Both the position numbers and the translations under genes were made by a program. A stretch of DNA of 64,000 bases, from assembly GCF_021646685.1 (NCBI RefSeq), contig NZ_JAKJHW010000006.1, forward strand, positions 186,001-250,000, in the 5' to 3' direction. The notes beneath the pieces were generated by a model. That model was given only the letters and a program-made list of their open reading frames with translations. It had not been told where the DNA came from and searched no databases. Below are positions 5,768 to 60,452 of the stretch, piece by piece; within the stretch, counting starts at the first letter, position 1, and each line of letters opens with the position of its first letter. Source of the DNA: Pseudalkalibacillus salsuginis. GTDB lineage: Bacteria; Bacillota; Bacilli; Bacillales; Fictibacillaceae.

Positions 5768-5845
5768 CATTTTTAAGATAATTTTTGAGTTGTTGAGATA
5801 ATTCTCAAGTTGTTGGGATAAAGTCAAAGTTGTCGAGATAAATCT
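5768..5845 (+). repeat. Array of a GAGATAA motif at exact 20-bp steps
   Basis: The heptamers AAGATAA, GAGATAA, GGGATAA and GAGATAA begin at 5775, 5795, 5815 and 5835; the last three are preceded by GTTGTTGAGATAA-like flanks. The step is exactly 20 bp. The array lies between the convergent genes at 4995 and 5909. Confidence 0.7.
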
Positions 5846-21383: not shown

Positions 21384-21648
21384 AAGGATAAGAAAGTATA
21401 AATTCGATGAAGTGATGTCCAGCTCCAACGCCCAACCACTTGGATCACTTCAGACCTCCTGCGGCGGCGACAGCCTCCTCGTCGGGCTTCCAGTGCCCTT
21501 CGCGGTTGATCAGGGCGTCTGCGCTTTTCTTGATGTCCAGCTCCAACGCCCAACCACTTGGATCACTTCAGACCTCCTGCGGCGGCTACAGCCTCCTCGT
21601 CGGACTTCCAGTGACCTTCATGGTTAACCAGGGCGTTTAGCTTTTCTT
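21383..21648 (+). repeat. Structured intergenic repeat, two tandem copies
   Basis: A leader GGATAAGAAAGTATAAA is followed by two copies starting at 21414 and 21532 (118-bp period), each running from GATGTCCAGCTCCAACGCCC to GCTTTTCTT. Each can fold into a long stem built from AACGCCC/GGGCGTT, CCAC/GTGG and TCACT/AGTGA pairs. The unbroken reading frame across the copies is a by-product of the repeat. Copies also occur at 25.8, 35.8, 43.6 and 47.8 kb. Confidence 0.85.
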
Positions 21649-21798
21649 GATGGTGTTGGAAAGCGGTATACGGAAGAAGATAATGAACATGAGCTGGAAA
21701 CTAATTTGTGGAGCAAAATAGTGGTACAATGAAAAAAGATTTATTTCTGATTCCGAAATAAATTCTATGAAGTTCCAAACAGATTAGGATGAACAACC

Positions 21799-30404: not shown

Positions 30405-30424
30405 ATAAGTGTAAATTTATACAA

Positions 30425-30516
30425 TTTATTGGTTGAATTCCAGAAAATATTGGTAAACAAGTAGATTTTATTGGTAAAGTGCCAAGAAATATCGGTAAAA
30501 TGCAGCACTCCGATAT
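30425..30516 (+). repeat. Array of TATTGGTAA motif at exact 21-bp steps
   Basis: TATTGGT or TATCGGT begins at 30427, 30448, 30469 and 30490, always followed by T or A-rich sequence. Located between convergent ABC-F and RNase Z genes. The motif is the reverse complement of the TTACCAATA array at 48 kb. Confidence 0.8.
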
Positions 30517-34466: not shown

Positions 34467-34610
34467 AAGGATTAAGACCCTAAGATTGAAAAACCCTAAA
34501 CAAAGGTACTCATAAAGAGGCTATGAGGCCTTTAAAATGAAAAAAAGCAGGATTTAAGGGACCCATAAAGAGGCTATGAGTCCCTCAAAACGAAAAAAAA
34601 ACAGACTTCA
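34467..34610 (+). repeat. 53-bp repeat array, three units
   Basis: CATAAAGAGGCTATGAG begins at 34511 and again at 34564 (53-bp step), each followed by a CCYTnAAAAnGAAAAAAA tract. A degenerate unit precedes them from 34467. Each unit contains a small hairpin CTCAT...ATGAG. The same family forms the 52-bp array at 60.1 kb. Confidence 0.7.
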
Positions 34611-43566: not shown

Positions 43567-43839
43567 TCAGAAAGTATAAAAATTTTGGTTGCGCTTTTCC
43601 TTGATGTCTAGCTCCAGCGCCCAACCACTAGGATCACTTCAGTCCTCCTGCGGCGGCAACAGCCTCCTCGTCGGACTTCCAGTGACCTTCGTGGCTGAAC
43701 AGGGCGCTTGCGCTTTTCCTTGATGTCTAGCTCCAGCGCCCAACCACTAGGATCACTTCAGTCCTCCTGCGGCGGCAACAGCCTCCTCGTCGGACTTCCA
43801 GTGACCTTCGTGGCTGATCAGGACGCTTGCGCTTTTCTT
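43567..43839 (+). repeat. Structured intergenic repeat, two tandem copies
   Basis: Leader GAAAGTATAAAAATTTTGG (about 43569), the tail GCGCTTTTCC of a lost copy (43591-43600), then copies at 43603-43721 and 43722-43839 (119-bp period). The basal stem is AGCGCCC/GGGCGCT (43616-43622 with 43702-43708), versus AACGCCC/GGGCGTT in other copies: a compensatory A-U to G-C change. AGTCC/GGACT pairs closer to the loop. Confidence 0.88.
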
Positions 43840-45674: not shown

Positions 45675-47795
45675 ATGCGTTGTCAAAAATGTCAAGTAAA
45701 CGAAGCCAATGTAAGAATGACTCTTCACATAAATGGGATTACAAAACAACTACGCCTCTGCCCTTCATGTTATAAAGAAATCCAAAATGAAATGAAGCAA
45801 CCAAGCGGTTTGGATGGTTTCTCCCACAATCCAATGGGCTTCAATATGGAGGATTTCATGATGCAGAATGAACAGCAAGCGGGCCAAAGCACTGCAGGAA
45901 AACGCGGTCAAGGCGGCCTACTTGATGATCTGGGACGTAACCTTACCGATGCGGCTAAAGCTGGATTGATCGATCCGGTCATCGGTCGGGATAAGGAAGT
46001 GAATCGAGTCATCGAAATTCTGAACCGTCGAAATAAAAACAACCCTGTACTGATCGGTGAGCCAGGTGTTGGTAAAACAGCGATTGCTGAAGGACTTGCT
46101 TTGAAAATCGCTGATCAAGATGCACCTAAGAAGCTTCTCAATAAACAGGTATACTTGTTGGATGTTTCTTCCCTTGTTGCCAATACAGGTATCCGTGGCC
46201 AATTTGAAGAGCGTATGAAACAATTGATTTCTGAAGTGCAACAACGTAAGAACGTCATCCTTTTCGTCGATGAGATCCATCTATTGGTAGGAGCAGGTTC
46301 AGCTGAAGGTTCCATGGATGCAGGGAACATCTTGAAACCAGCTCTTGCCCGCGGGGAACTTCAACTTGTCGGTGCGACGACATTGAAAGAGTACCGTCAA
46401 ATCGAAAAGGATGCGGCACTCGAACGCCGTTTCCAACCAGTCATGGTAAAAGAACCGACAATCGATGAAGCCGTGGAGATTTTAAAAGGATTAAAAGAAA
46501 AATATGAACAATATCATGATATCCGATACACAGACGAAGCCCTTCAAGCATGTGTCACATTATCCCAACGTTACATCCAGGATCGGTTCCTTCCAGATAA
46601 AGCGATCGACCTTATGGATGAAACCGGTTCTAAAATGAACTTGAAGCATGCAGGAATGACAACTTCAGAAGACATTGAAGAACGGCTTGCAGCTATTGCA
46701 AAGGAGAAAGAGGAAGCAACTCGACAAGAGGATTATGAGCGTGCGGCTAAACTTCGTGATGAAGAGTTGAAACTGCAAGAAAAGACAGCAACAGCTACTG
46801 AAGAAAAACCTTGGGTCGAACTTGAAGATATCCAATGGATCGTTGAAGAGAAAACTGGAATTCCAGTGCGTAAACTTCAAAATGAAGAGCAAAACAAGCT
46901 GAAGAATTTTGCGGAACGCCTCGGCTCAAGGGTCATTGGACAGGAAGAAGCCGTTCAAAAAGTGGCTAAAGCAATCCGCCGTAGCCGTGCAGGACTGAAA
47001 TCAAAGGTACGTCCGATCGGTTCATTCCTTTTCGTCGGGCCTACCGGTGTAGGTAAAACCGAACTGACGAAGACACTTGCAGAAGAGCTGTTTGGCTCCA
47101 GGGATGCTATGCTCCGTTTGGATATGAGTGAGTATATGGAAAAACATTCTGTATCCAAACTGATCGGTTCGCCACCAGGTTATGTCGGACATGATGAAGC
47201 CGGACAGTTGACAGAACGTGTGCGTAGAAATCCTTACAGCATCATTCTATTGGATGAGATCGAGAAAGCGCACCCGGATGTTCAGCACATGTTCCTTCAA
47301 ATCATGGAAGATGGCCGACTGACTGACAGTCAAGGGCGTACAGTCAGCTTCAAAGACACCGTCATCATCATGACAAGTAACGCTGGTACAGGAGTCAAGA
47401 AAATTAAGGTCGGGTTCGAAAATCGAGAAACTGAAGCGATCTCCATCCTTGAAAATCTTGGTGACTACTTCAAGCCAGAATTCTTGAACCGTTTTGATAC
47501 GATCATCCAATTCAACGAGTTGAATGAAGAACATCTTGTTCAAATTGTTGATTTGATGCTGGATGATATCCGTGGAATGGTGAAGGAAGATGGTCGTGTA
47601 ATCGAAGTGACAGAAGAAGCGAAAAAACAAATCGTCCATCTTGGTTACGATCCTCGTTTCGGAGCACGTCCAATCCGCCGTGTCCTTCAAGAAAAAGTGG
47701 AAGACGGCATTGCTGATCTACTACTGGATGAGGAAGATATAACTAAGATCAGAGTTGATTATATCGATGACGAAATCGTTGTCCAAAAAGGATGA
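45675..47795 (+). CDS. clpE: ATP-dependent Clp protease ATP-binding subunit ClpE
   Basis: 706 residues: N-terminal zinc finger (CQKC ... CPSC, residues 3-29), first AAA+ module with GEPGVGKTA and Walker [10 protein letters not shown], a short UVR-containing middle domain ([20 protein letters not shown]), second AAA+ with GPTGVGKTE and [10 protein letters not shown], and a C-terminal D2-small domain. It unfolds damaged proteins for ClpP. The zinc finger and short middle domain separate it from ClpC. AAAAGGAGG precedes the ATG. Confidence 0.96.
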
Positions 47796-47838: not shown

Positions 47839-47994
47839 GGATAAGAAAATATAAAAATTTTGGTTGCGGTGAAGTGATGTCTATCTTCAACGCCCAACCA
47901 CTTTGGATCACTTCAGACCTCCTGCGGCGGCAACAGCCTCCTCGTCGGACTTCCAGTGACCTTCGTGGTTAACCAGGGCGTTTGCGCTTTTCTT
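47839..47994 (+). repeat. Structured intergenic repeat, single copy
   Basis: Leader GATAAGAAAATATAAAAATT and a single copy with basal stem AACGCCC (47889-47895) / GGGCGTT (47976-47982). The 21-bp array begins four bases after its end. Confidence 0.85.
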
Positions 47995-47998
47995 AGAT

Positions 47999-48095
47999 TT
48001 ACCAATACGATTTTGGGTGTTACCAATAATATTAATGCTTTTACCAATATTTTCGAACCGTTTACCAATATATTTGCAGTGAATACCGATATATA
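47999..48095 (+). repeat. Array of TTACCAATA motif at exact 21-bp steps
   Basis: TTACCAATA starts at 47999, 48020, 48041 and 48062, and ATACCGATA at 48083: five units with a constant 21-bp step and unrelated sequence between. Lies between clpE and the permease remnant. Confidence 0.85.
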
Positions 48096-48123
48096 GTGTA
48101 ACTTTACACCACCAGGGAAATTT

Positions 48124-48495
48124 TTATTGACCGCTCCAACGGAAAAAACGTGAAGCAAGAAACAGGGATACAACTGAAATCCCTAGCAGGACTCCGACTT
48201 CGAGTCCGTAGTCAGTGATCGGCCCGGAAGTCCATGTTCCTCTCAACAACTGTATCGTATAATAAAGCGGGAGCGCTTTACCTACATATTGTAAAATATC
48301 TGGCATTATATCTAACGGGAAGGTTGCCCCTGAGAGGAACAGCATTAGATTAAGAAAAAGAGAACTGATCGCTGCAGCACTTTGTGTATTTTTAGCAAAC
48401 GAGCAATGCCAGCAATGTACTGCCGATATACTGTGGCAAGGTAAGATCATACATCAACATGCCGAAAACCATCAATAAGATCGCTGAACCTTTCT
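48124..48495 (-). pseudogene. ABC-2 type permease remnant
   Basis: The frame at 48124-48450 encodes FAKNTQSAAAISSLFLNLML and LPLYYTIQLLRGTWTSGP, the C-terminal membrane part of an ABC-2 permease (YhaP/LinM-like). Upstream, SAILLMVFGMLMYDLTLPQY lies in another frame, so there is a frameshift near 48415. The N-terminal two thirds and any ATPase partner are gone. Repeat arrays flank both sides. Confidence 0.75.
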
Positions 48496-48502
48496 TTAAA
48501 AT

Positions 48503-48604
48503 CACCGATATATTTTTGATTTGCACCGATAAAAATTGAATGAGCACCGATATAAATTAAATGTTCATCGATAAAAATTGAATGAGCACCGATATATTTT
48601 AAAT
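48503..48604 (+). repeat. Array of CACCGATA motif at exact 21-bp steps
   Basis: CACCGATA, CACCGATA, CACCGATA, CATCGATA and CACCGATA begin at 48503, 48524, 48545, 48566 and 48587: five units, 21-bp step, spacers AAAAATTGAATGAG-like. Confidence 0.85.
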
Positions 48605-48677: not shown

Positions 48678-49577
48678 ATGAAAAACTGGGCATTTGTATT
48701 GATCGCACTCGGCGCGGCATTATGGGGCCTTATCGCGATTTTTGTGGAAGGTCTGTATGCTTATGGTTTTACAGCGCTCCAAGTCGTCGCGATCCGAGTC
48801 ATTGTAGCAGCACTGATCTTAATTGGCTTTGCACTCTTGAAAGACCCCAAGCTCTTCAAGGTTCATTGGCGGGACAGCATTTATTTCATCGGAACCGGCA
48901 TATTCAGCATTGTCTTCTTTAACTGGTGCCTGTTCACTGCGATCCGGGAAACTTCAATTGCGGTAGCAGCCATTTTACTTTATACAGCTCCTGCGATCGT
49001 GACGATCATTTCAAGATTTTTGTTTAAAGAATGGTTCACGAAGAGAAAACTTGCCGCACTATTCATGACATTGTTCGGGTGTGCGTTTGTGATCGGTCTG
49101 ATTCCCGGAGGTTCGAGCTCTGTTTCGTTATACGGCGTCATTGTGGGACTTGGCTCAGGCTTGGGTTACGCACTTTATAGTATTTTTGGGAAGTATGCCC
49201 TGTCGAAATATTCATCCTTGACCGTCATTACGTACACGTTCATTTTTGCCTCAGTGGCCATGATTCCGACCACAGGTTTATGGAGGATGACAAGCGAGCT
49301 GAAAGAACCAGGTGTTATTTTGAATGCAGTCGGGATCGGTTTTGTATCCACTGTTCTCGCCTACATGCTGTATACAGCCGGCCTGCAATTCGTGGAATCG
49401 AGCCGGGCTTCGATTACAGCTACGGTCGAGCCTGTGGTCGCGACCTTGGTAAGCGTTGTGCTGTTCCAGGAACAACTGACAGTTTGGCAATTGGCCGGGA
49501 TCTTCCTGGTGCTCAGTGCTGTCATGATCGTGCAAGAATCGAAAAAAGCGAGGCTGAAACAATCATTAGCAAAATAG
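48678..49577 (+). CDS. EamA/DMT family transporter
   Basis: 299 residues, ten membrane helices in two EamA repeats (about 5-138 and 152-288; the second ends GIFLVLSAVMIVQES). Likely exporter of small metabolites; substrate unknown. AAAGGAGAG precedes the ATG. The SDR gene starts 12 bases after its stop, so the two are probably co-transcribed. Confidence 0.88.
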   Translation: MKNWAFVLIALGAALWGLIAIFVEGLYAYGFTALQVVAIRVIVAALILIGFALLKDPKLFKVHWRDSIYFIGTGIFSIVFFNWCLFTAIRETSIAVAAILLYTAPAIVTIISRFLFKEWFTKRKLAALFMTLFGCAFVIGLIPGGSSSVSLYGVIVGLGSGLGYALYSIFGKYALSKYSSLTVITYTFIFASVAMIPTTGLWRMTSELKEPGVILNAVGIGFVSTVLAYMLYTAGLQFVESSRASITATVEPVVATLVSVVLFQEQLTVWQLAGIFLVLSAVMIVQESKKARLKQSLAK

Positions 49578-60066: not shown

Positions 60067-60099
60067 TTAAGGACACTTCAATTATGAAGTGTTCTTTTC
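60067..60099 (+). terminator. Terminator of the sigma-54 operon
   Basis: GGACACTTCA-ATTA-TGAAGTGTTC followed by TTTTCG. Confidence 0.85.
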
Positions 60100-60325
60100 G
60101 TTATGAGACCCTGTAACCACGAAAACAAGATTTTGAGGCACGCATAGGAGCGTTATGAGACCTTGAAAACACGGAAAGGCGATTTTAAGGGACTCATAAA
60201 AGCGTCATGGGACCCTATAATCACGAAAGAACGATTTTGAGGGACTCATAGGAGCGTCATGTGACCCTGAAACCACGAAAGAACAATTTTGAGGGACTCA
60301 TAAGAGCGTCATGAGACCCTGAATA
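60099..60325 (+). repeat. 52-bp repeat array, five units
   Basis: The element CGTYATGRGACC begins at 60099, 60151, 60203, 60255 and 60307, an exact 52-bp step. A unit reads ACTCATAAGAGCGTCATGAG, then CCCTGAAACCACGAAAGAAC and ATTTTGAGGG. Within each, CTCAT/ATGAG can pair. Same family as the 34.5-kb array. Confidence 0.85.
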
Positions 60326-60452
60326 CAAGGAAGAATACGAGAAAAGGAAGAATACGAGAAAAGGAAGAGCCGAATTATTCAAAGTTCATAGCAAAACTGG
60401 ATCCAGCTCGGGAGAAATATCTTTTATTTTACCTAAAGGGTTTCCATGCTGG

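Follow-up and report, generated by a model that had tools for sequence, protein, structure and literature searches.

A 21-bp-step TATYGGT array behind clpE of Pseudalkalibacillus salsuginis and its dispersed relatives in Bacillales

Array 1 and the repeats around it

What keeps a short motif at an exactly constant step when the bases between its copies vary? The question is raised by a non-coding array in the 64,000-nucleotide stretch of Pseudalkalibacillus salsuginis DNA analyzed here (the window), in which exact matches to WTACCRATA start at positions 47999, 48020, 48041 and 48062 (all TTACCAATA) and at 48083 (ATACCGATA). The core ACCRATA reads TATYGGT on the other strand, and motif matches together with a pattern scan define array 1 as five units of TATYGGT plus 14 nt, at a 21-bp step, on the minus strand (47987–48091). 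Pairs of ACCRATA across the window, counted at lags of 8–70 bp, occur only at 21 (n = 9), 42 (n = 7) and 63 bp (n = 4), with none at 10 bp; in 200 dinucleotide shuffles of the window, no pair appeared at lag 21 and no single lag had more than one. The five motifs at an exact 21-bp step described in the initial annotation are therefore real. Its accompanying points also stand: the motif is kept while the spacers vary and the step stays constant, 21 bp amounts to two turns of the helix, and the array is non-coding. No called ORF runs over any of the three TATYGGT arrays in the window. Its defining motif, TTACCRATA, proved too narrow, as TTACCAATA represents a single subtype (type II) of the wider TATYGGT core.

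The gene preceding array 1 (45675–47795, plus strand) is one we take to be clpE, encoding an AAA+ protease ATPase, from the name in the initial annotation; a Pfam scan of 38 flanking genes gave one AAA_2 and one AAA_lid_9 match, presumably from this gene. Its stop codon lies 204 bp from the first motif. The interval contains a terminator-like hairpin (read by eye) and a dispersed repeat of ~120 bp (GATGTCTAGCTCCAACGCCCAACCACT…; 47875–47996, ends approximate, no strand assigned), which adjoins the array and recurs as tandem pairs at 21413–21652 and 43589–43837. At the clpE site of a relative (G005) the ~120-bp repeat is missing and the array adjoins the hairpin. The same repeat has a 78% match near the end of one Anoxybacillus plasmid record. 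Array 1 is headed by a 14-bp palindrome, GTGTAAAGTTACAC (48096–48109, minus strand), which precedes the first unit by 4 bp.

Two further TATYGGT arrays, overlooked in the initial annotation, are present. Array 2 (48490–48594, minus strand) is of type I and has five units, four with TATCGGT and one with TATCGAT cores, seen on the plus strand as four ACCGATA and one ATCGATA at an exact 21-bp step within 48504–48594; its final unit is distinct (TATCGGTGATTT, 48490–48510). It is situated between divergent genes, upstream of an EamA-like one at 48678; beside this array our simple, crude ORF caller chose a wrong ORF. Array 3 (30427–30510, plus strand) is of type II, with four units at a 21-bp step and four TATYGGT cores within 30427–30496, and is headed by an imperfect palindrome, GTGTAAATTTATAC (30409–30422, plus strand). 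Like array 1 it lies in a convergent gap, between genes that we take to be ABC-F-like and RNase Z-like. An array with another core, GTTGTYGRGATAA, has three copies at an exactly 20-bp step (5789–5841, plus strand) and a degenerate fourth copy at 5769. An Rfam scan of the window returned nothing except a Bacillaceae-1 RNA (RF01690; 54940–55007, minus strand), away from the arrays.

A described repeat class with a recurrent core

The initial annotation knew of no described element of this kind, which was wrong. Subirana and Messeguer (2021; PMC8161180) reported 781 repeats of 20–21 nt and 1886 of 51–53 nt in 176 Bacillus genomes. According to the text of that paper, the 20–21-nt repeats are constant in size and variable in sequence, mostly non-coding, and grouped in several families per genome, with short conserved signals such as TCGCGG in B. 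weihaiensis; some species are rich in them and others poor. Their sequences are described as species-specific, related species excepted, and without sequence conservation, and the 52-nt class as partly conserved, with length changes between strains. The authors pointed out that this size equals two turns of the helix and proposed that a polymerising protein or small RNAs might be involved, without assigning a function. Transcription has been reported for the 52-nt repeats of B. coagulans (PMC8161180; PMC8625621).

Array 1 almost certainly belongs to this 20–21-nt constant-size tandem repeat class (PMC8161180). The published criterion asks for four or more repeats, of which 60% or more have equal length within 1 nt; array 1 has five units and four steps of 21 bp, counted by pattern matching in place of the published program SATFIND. 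The non-coding property extends to all three TATYGGT arrays of the window, several families of the same size coexist in the genome (types I and II and the GTTGTYGRGATAA array), and TATYGGT provides the short conserved signal. Species-specific sequence, which PMC8161180 gives as a property and not as a search criterion, does not apply: the three-unit TATYGGT pattern occurs in 16 of 397 genomes, two of them doubtful. New relative to the text of that paper are a TATCGGT core common to several families, polarity and placement at gene ends, as well as the turnover of units at orthologous sites with its core and spacer rates, and a second core in a sister species. A literature search, which covered main texts and sampled in part those containing these letters, found no TATCGGT as a tandem-repeat core. 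The published 51–53-nt repeats likewise span a whole number of helical turns, and the window has such repeats too (60099–60332 and 34503–34599), but with a period of 52–53 bp and inverted, hairpin-like cores (ATGAGNCCC … GGGNCTCAT, read by eye).

To examine spacing beyond the window, we used a loose pattern in which two TATYGGT copies were separated by 4–30 bases, allowing steps of 11–37 bp, with the reversed pattern as control. In the own genome (G000, 4.29 Mb), 44 of 50 pairs fell at exactly 21 bp and none at 31 bp, against six matches in all for the control, confirming the genome-wide excess that had been proposed as a check. Within the genus, pairs fixed at 21 bp numbered 44 in G000, 39 in G005 and 19 in G006, and 0–2 in the other five of eight genomes; the reversed control matched in none of the eight. 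In G031, a member of another family, the loose pattern matched 67 pairs, 60 of which had a step of 20 or 21 bp (control, 9). In arrays fetched from other genomes, where seeds were required to lie 20 or 21 bp apart and part of the arrays were read by eye, chained steps were 21 (n = 347), 20 (n = 262), 19 (n = 17) and 22 bp (n = 1). One genome, G094 (L285–L294), has 388 three-unit TATYGGT matches, and among the places listed for it are arrays of ~26 units in which 20- and 21-bp steps often alternate.

Across the order, the three-unit pattern was found in 16 of 397 genomes, from 12 of 135 genera and 10 families counted by handles, with two matches for its reversed control. G154 and G342 look like plain repeats or chance, and without them 14 genomes and eight families remain. 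The strict pattern, which variant cores and two-unit arrays would escape, is absent from 381 of the 397 genomes; with so patchy a distribution, the arrays hardly serve a general need. A phylum sample gave three of 398 genomes and one control match: the own genome plus G701 and G718, the latter two resembling plain repeats. Many of the rows listed by a contig-wide scan were cyanobacterial heptamer repeats, and we used the Bacillales rows alone; array-like matches among those listed include Sporosarcina luteola, Cytobacillus citreus, Bacillus sp. NTK034, Bacillus litorisediminis, Sporolactobacillus laevolacticus and S. nakayamae.

Other known repeat systems share individual features with these arrays. 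The iterons of plasmid origins and the repeats of plasmid centromeres are direct repeats of ~20–22 bp that a protein recognises, and in some cases a palindromic operator adjoins them; here, however, there are many chromosomal copies, some at orthologous sites, and no recurrent family among the flanking genes scanned. Enterobacterial REP/BIME elements are palindromic, intergenic and dispersed, often at gene 3′ ends; the present arrays are also dispersed and intergenic, but they are direct repeats without a clear folding signal. We rejected a plasmid origin, as plasmids gave only two 21-nt matches (E = 0.6), neither array-like, and also a phage origin, as most of the 13 matching viral stretches have near-identical units.

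Unit anatomy, polarity and turnover

Among 48 arrays from G000, G005 and G006 (orthologous pairs kept, four contig-end loci left out), 35 are of type I, with the unit TATCGGTGCAAATnnnAAATA, and 13 of type II, with the unit TATTGGTAAACnnnnnAAAAA, so the subtype of array 1 is the minority in this genus group; TTACCAATA reads TATTGGTAAAC on the other strand. The arrays are polar: either their last unit is distinct or a palindrome heads them. Specifically, positions 8–10 read GAT or AAT in 23 of 35 last units of type I versus 1 of 128 internal units, and type II arrays usually start ~4 bp after a GTGTANNNNTACAC-like palindrome, with 10 of 13 passing a simple GTGTA/GTGTG test (orthologous pairs included in both counts). 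Five arrays of G100 share a distinct last unit of their own. Elsewhere, in most of the genomes that supplied enough units, TATCGGTC is the core, the letters following it differ from genome to genome, and the bases just before it are often kept; information per column is high in the core and, in most sets, lowest at columns ~13–17. Two arrays (L008 and L184) contain ABAB-type spacers. At contig ends of the own genome, L001, L003, L007 and L022 are nearly identical type I arrays; the stretch beside L022 reads like 5S rRNA, and because of it these copies may be linked to rRNA operons.

The comparison of G000 with G005 provided 14 orthologous array pairs with flank identities of 89.5–97.9%, one of them the array behind clpE (L169), whose presence in a close relative had been the other proposed check. 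Whole 21-bp units differ in nine of the 14 pairs. Substitutions amounted to 11 of 410 core positions, 60 of 812 spacer positions and 189 of 2546 flank positions. Pairs were discovered only where both members had two intact neighbouring cores, and a simulation of this condition predicted 19.3 core changes against the 11 seen (P = 0.019); with the neutral rate set at 6%, 11 or fewer core changes had P = 0.10. Since the signal weakens after this ascertainment correction, core constraint is supportive but not decisive.

More distant comparisons extended these observations. G006 has arrays at four sites orthologous to those of G000, with flanks ~75–84% identical and spacers largely different. The clpE site is a short, array-free gap in G004 and G007; in G003 it holds an array built on another core, TTTGGTNAGAATT, at a 21-bp step and in the opposite orientation. 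With steps of 13–41 bp allowed, all six TTTGGTNAGAATT matches in G003, at three loci, lie at 21 bp; this core was found in none of the other seven genus genomes, and its control gave no match. At a yfhP-like site, where G000, G005 and G006 have TATCGGT arrays, G003 shows an inverted array with three copies of CTATTCATTACCATC…GATAGGGATGAATAG at a ~62-bp step (L308).

Genomic context and candidate functions

We then considered where the arrays lie, using 107 array places that remained after 13 G005 loci orthologous to G000 and four contig-end loci were dropped. The simple ORF caller classified 103 of them, the other four having no flanking gene: 41 lie between codirectional genes transcribed with the array direction and 27 between codirectional genes transcribed against it, 27 in convergent gaps and 8 in divergent gaps. 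The excess of convergent over divergent gaps is significant against a 1:1 expectation (P = 0.002) but not when set against the mix of gaps at these loci (P = 0.065). Among flanking genes, ends are more numerous than starts (123 versus 87, P = 0.016). No Pfam family occurred in more than two of the 117 flanking genes scanned out of 210 (79 of 87 gene starts and 38 of 123 gene ends). The neighbours thus share no function, and the position behind clpE, mentioned in the initial annotation, is not special. Called ORFs overlap seven of 52 arrays of the genus group, and several arrays have one reading frame with stops (read by eye) and another that is open. Coding heptads (21 bp as seven codons) were rejected mainly for the 20-bp steps common in other genomes, where mixed 20- and 21-bp steps break the frames.

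We see an even chance that the arrays, a dispersed family of the 20–21-nt class, are same-face docking sites for a DNA-binding protein that we infer. Of the initial annotation's proposal, cooperative binding on one face is the best fit to the data, and the protein itself stays putative. Each unit is an asymmetric site of ~11–12 conserved bp (TATYGGT, 2–3 bp before it and a few after) followed by ~9 freer bp, so that sites recur every two helical turns on one DNA face. A sequence-specific protein would occupy each site, adjacent copies being in head-to-tail contact and having a rigid footprint of ~21 bp, and the row would start or end where the polar head or last unit lies. Locally, such a row would probably serve as a nucleoid, insulator or supercoil-pinning element, with gene 3′ ends as its more frequent location. 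Array length changes as whole units are duplicated or deleted, and selection would keep the core. Rigid 20–21-bp steps, the lack of 31- and 10-bp steps in the own genome and window, a short asymmetric core and polarity correspond to the needs of a presumed head-to-tail protein row.

The main rival to protein docking is a neutral minisatellite, a 21-bp tandem duplication spread by slippage and recombination, whose step would be constant because whole units are copied and whose core would be what recombination keeps alike. Whole-unit gain or loss in nine of 14 orthologous pairs, the ABAB-type spacers and a core-conservation excess that is only modest after correction all suit this view, which we regard as possible but doubtful: the core columns conserved in one genus are conserved in others too, the last unit is polar, and the exact 21-bp step returns with another core in all six G003 matches. 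Moreover, steps of 20 or 21 bp dominate even with 11–37 bp allowed, whereas neutral duplications would have many periods. That the arrays are 3′-UTR segments or small RNAs appears unlikely. Codirectional arrays of the own genus group do run with transcription (15 with versus 4 against, P = 0.019), and the B. coagulans 52-nt repeats are transcribed (PMC8161180; PMC8625621), but the bias over all genomes is 41 versus 27 (P = 0.11), arrays 1 and 3 lie beyond a hairpin that follows the plus-strand gene (read by eye), and each step spans whole turns of the DNA helix. RNA folding of 12 array strands against shuffles was unremarkable (z from −1.86 to +1.45), although two strands folded somewhat better than most shuffles, with 10 and 8 of 200 as good.

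An origin as ends or remains of mobile elements, with a transposase binding several sites as at Tn7-type or Mu ends, is quite improbable. The polar arrays with a palindromic head or distinct last unit, and the dispersed G100 arrays with their common last unit, recall such ends; against this stand the lack of any Pfam family matching more than two of the 117 scanned neighbours, the arrays at four sites orthologous between G000 and G006 with ~75–84% flank identity, the lack of array-like matches in plasmids and the near-identical units of most viral matches. Least probable, to the point of being remote, is that the arrays are operators of an ordinary transcription regulator. CtsR is an example, as clpE is a CtsR target elsewhere, and CtsR boxes, with the heptamer GGTCAAA, lie ~10 bp apart in promoters. 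Array 1 adjoins clpE, the G031 arrays read GGTCAAA, and array 2 lies upstream of a gene. Yet the step is 20–21 bp instead of ~10 bp, so the arrays do not have the layout of CtsR operators; what follows the core is not the same in every genome, and the flanking genes share no function and present more ends than starts.

Building on the docking reading, we suggest with considerable reservation that Bacillales carry a dedicated, fast-evolving DNA-binding protein that would line up in head-to-tail order along TATCGGTC sites, its footprint fixed at 20–21 bp and the core, direction and last unit forming its recognition code, and that lineages with changed specificity would rebuild their arrays around a different core, in some cases without a change of intergenic site. 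The TTTGGTNAGAATT arrays of G003 may be an example of such rebuilding. Apart from size, sequences of the published class were believed to have little in common. A core found in several families provides a concrete bait for the binder, in the form of TATCGGTC sites at 21-bp spacing, for which spacings of 16 and 26 bp would be the controls. A genus with array-rich and array-poor sister species likewise offers a natural comparison for finding the binder gene.

Polarity along the replication strand was rejected on the basis of G326, whose origin is at 357 kb and whose five arrays lie on strands +, −, −, + and + (an isolated 18-bp-step match at 239 kb left out). These five TATCGGT arrays on contig 1 fall within 0.66 Mb (898–1554 kb) of 5.43 Mb, on one replication arm, a clustering with P of about 0.001 by a simple formula.
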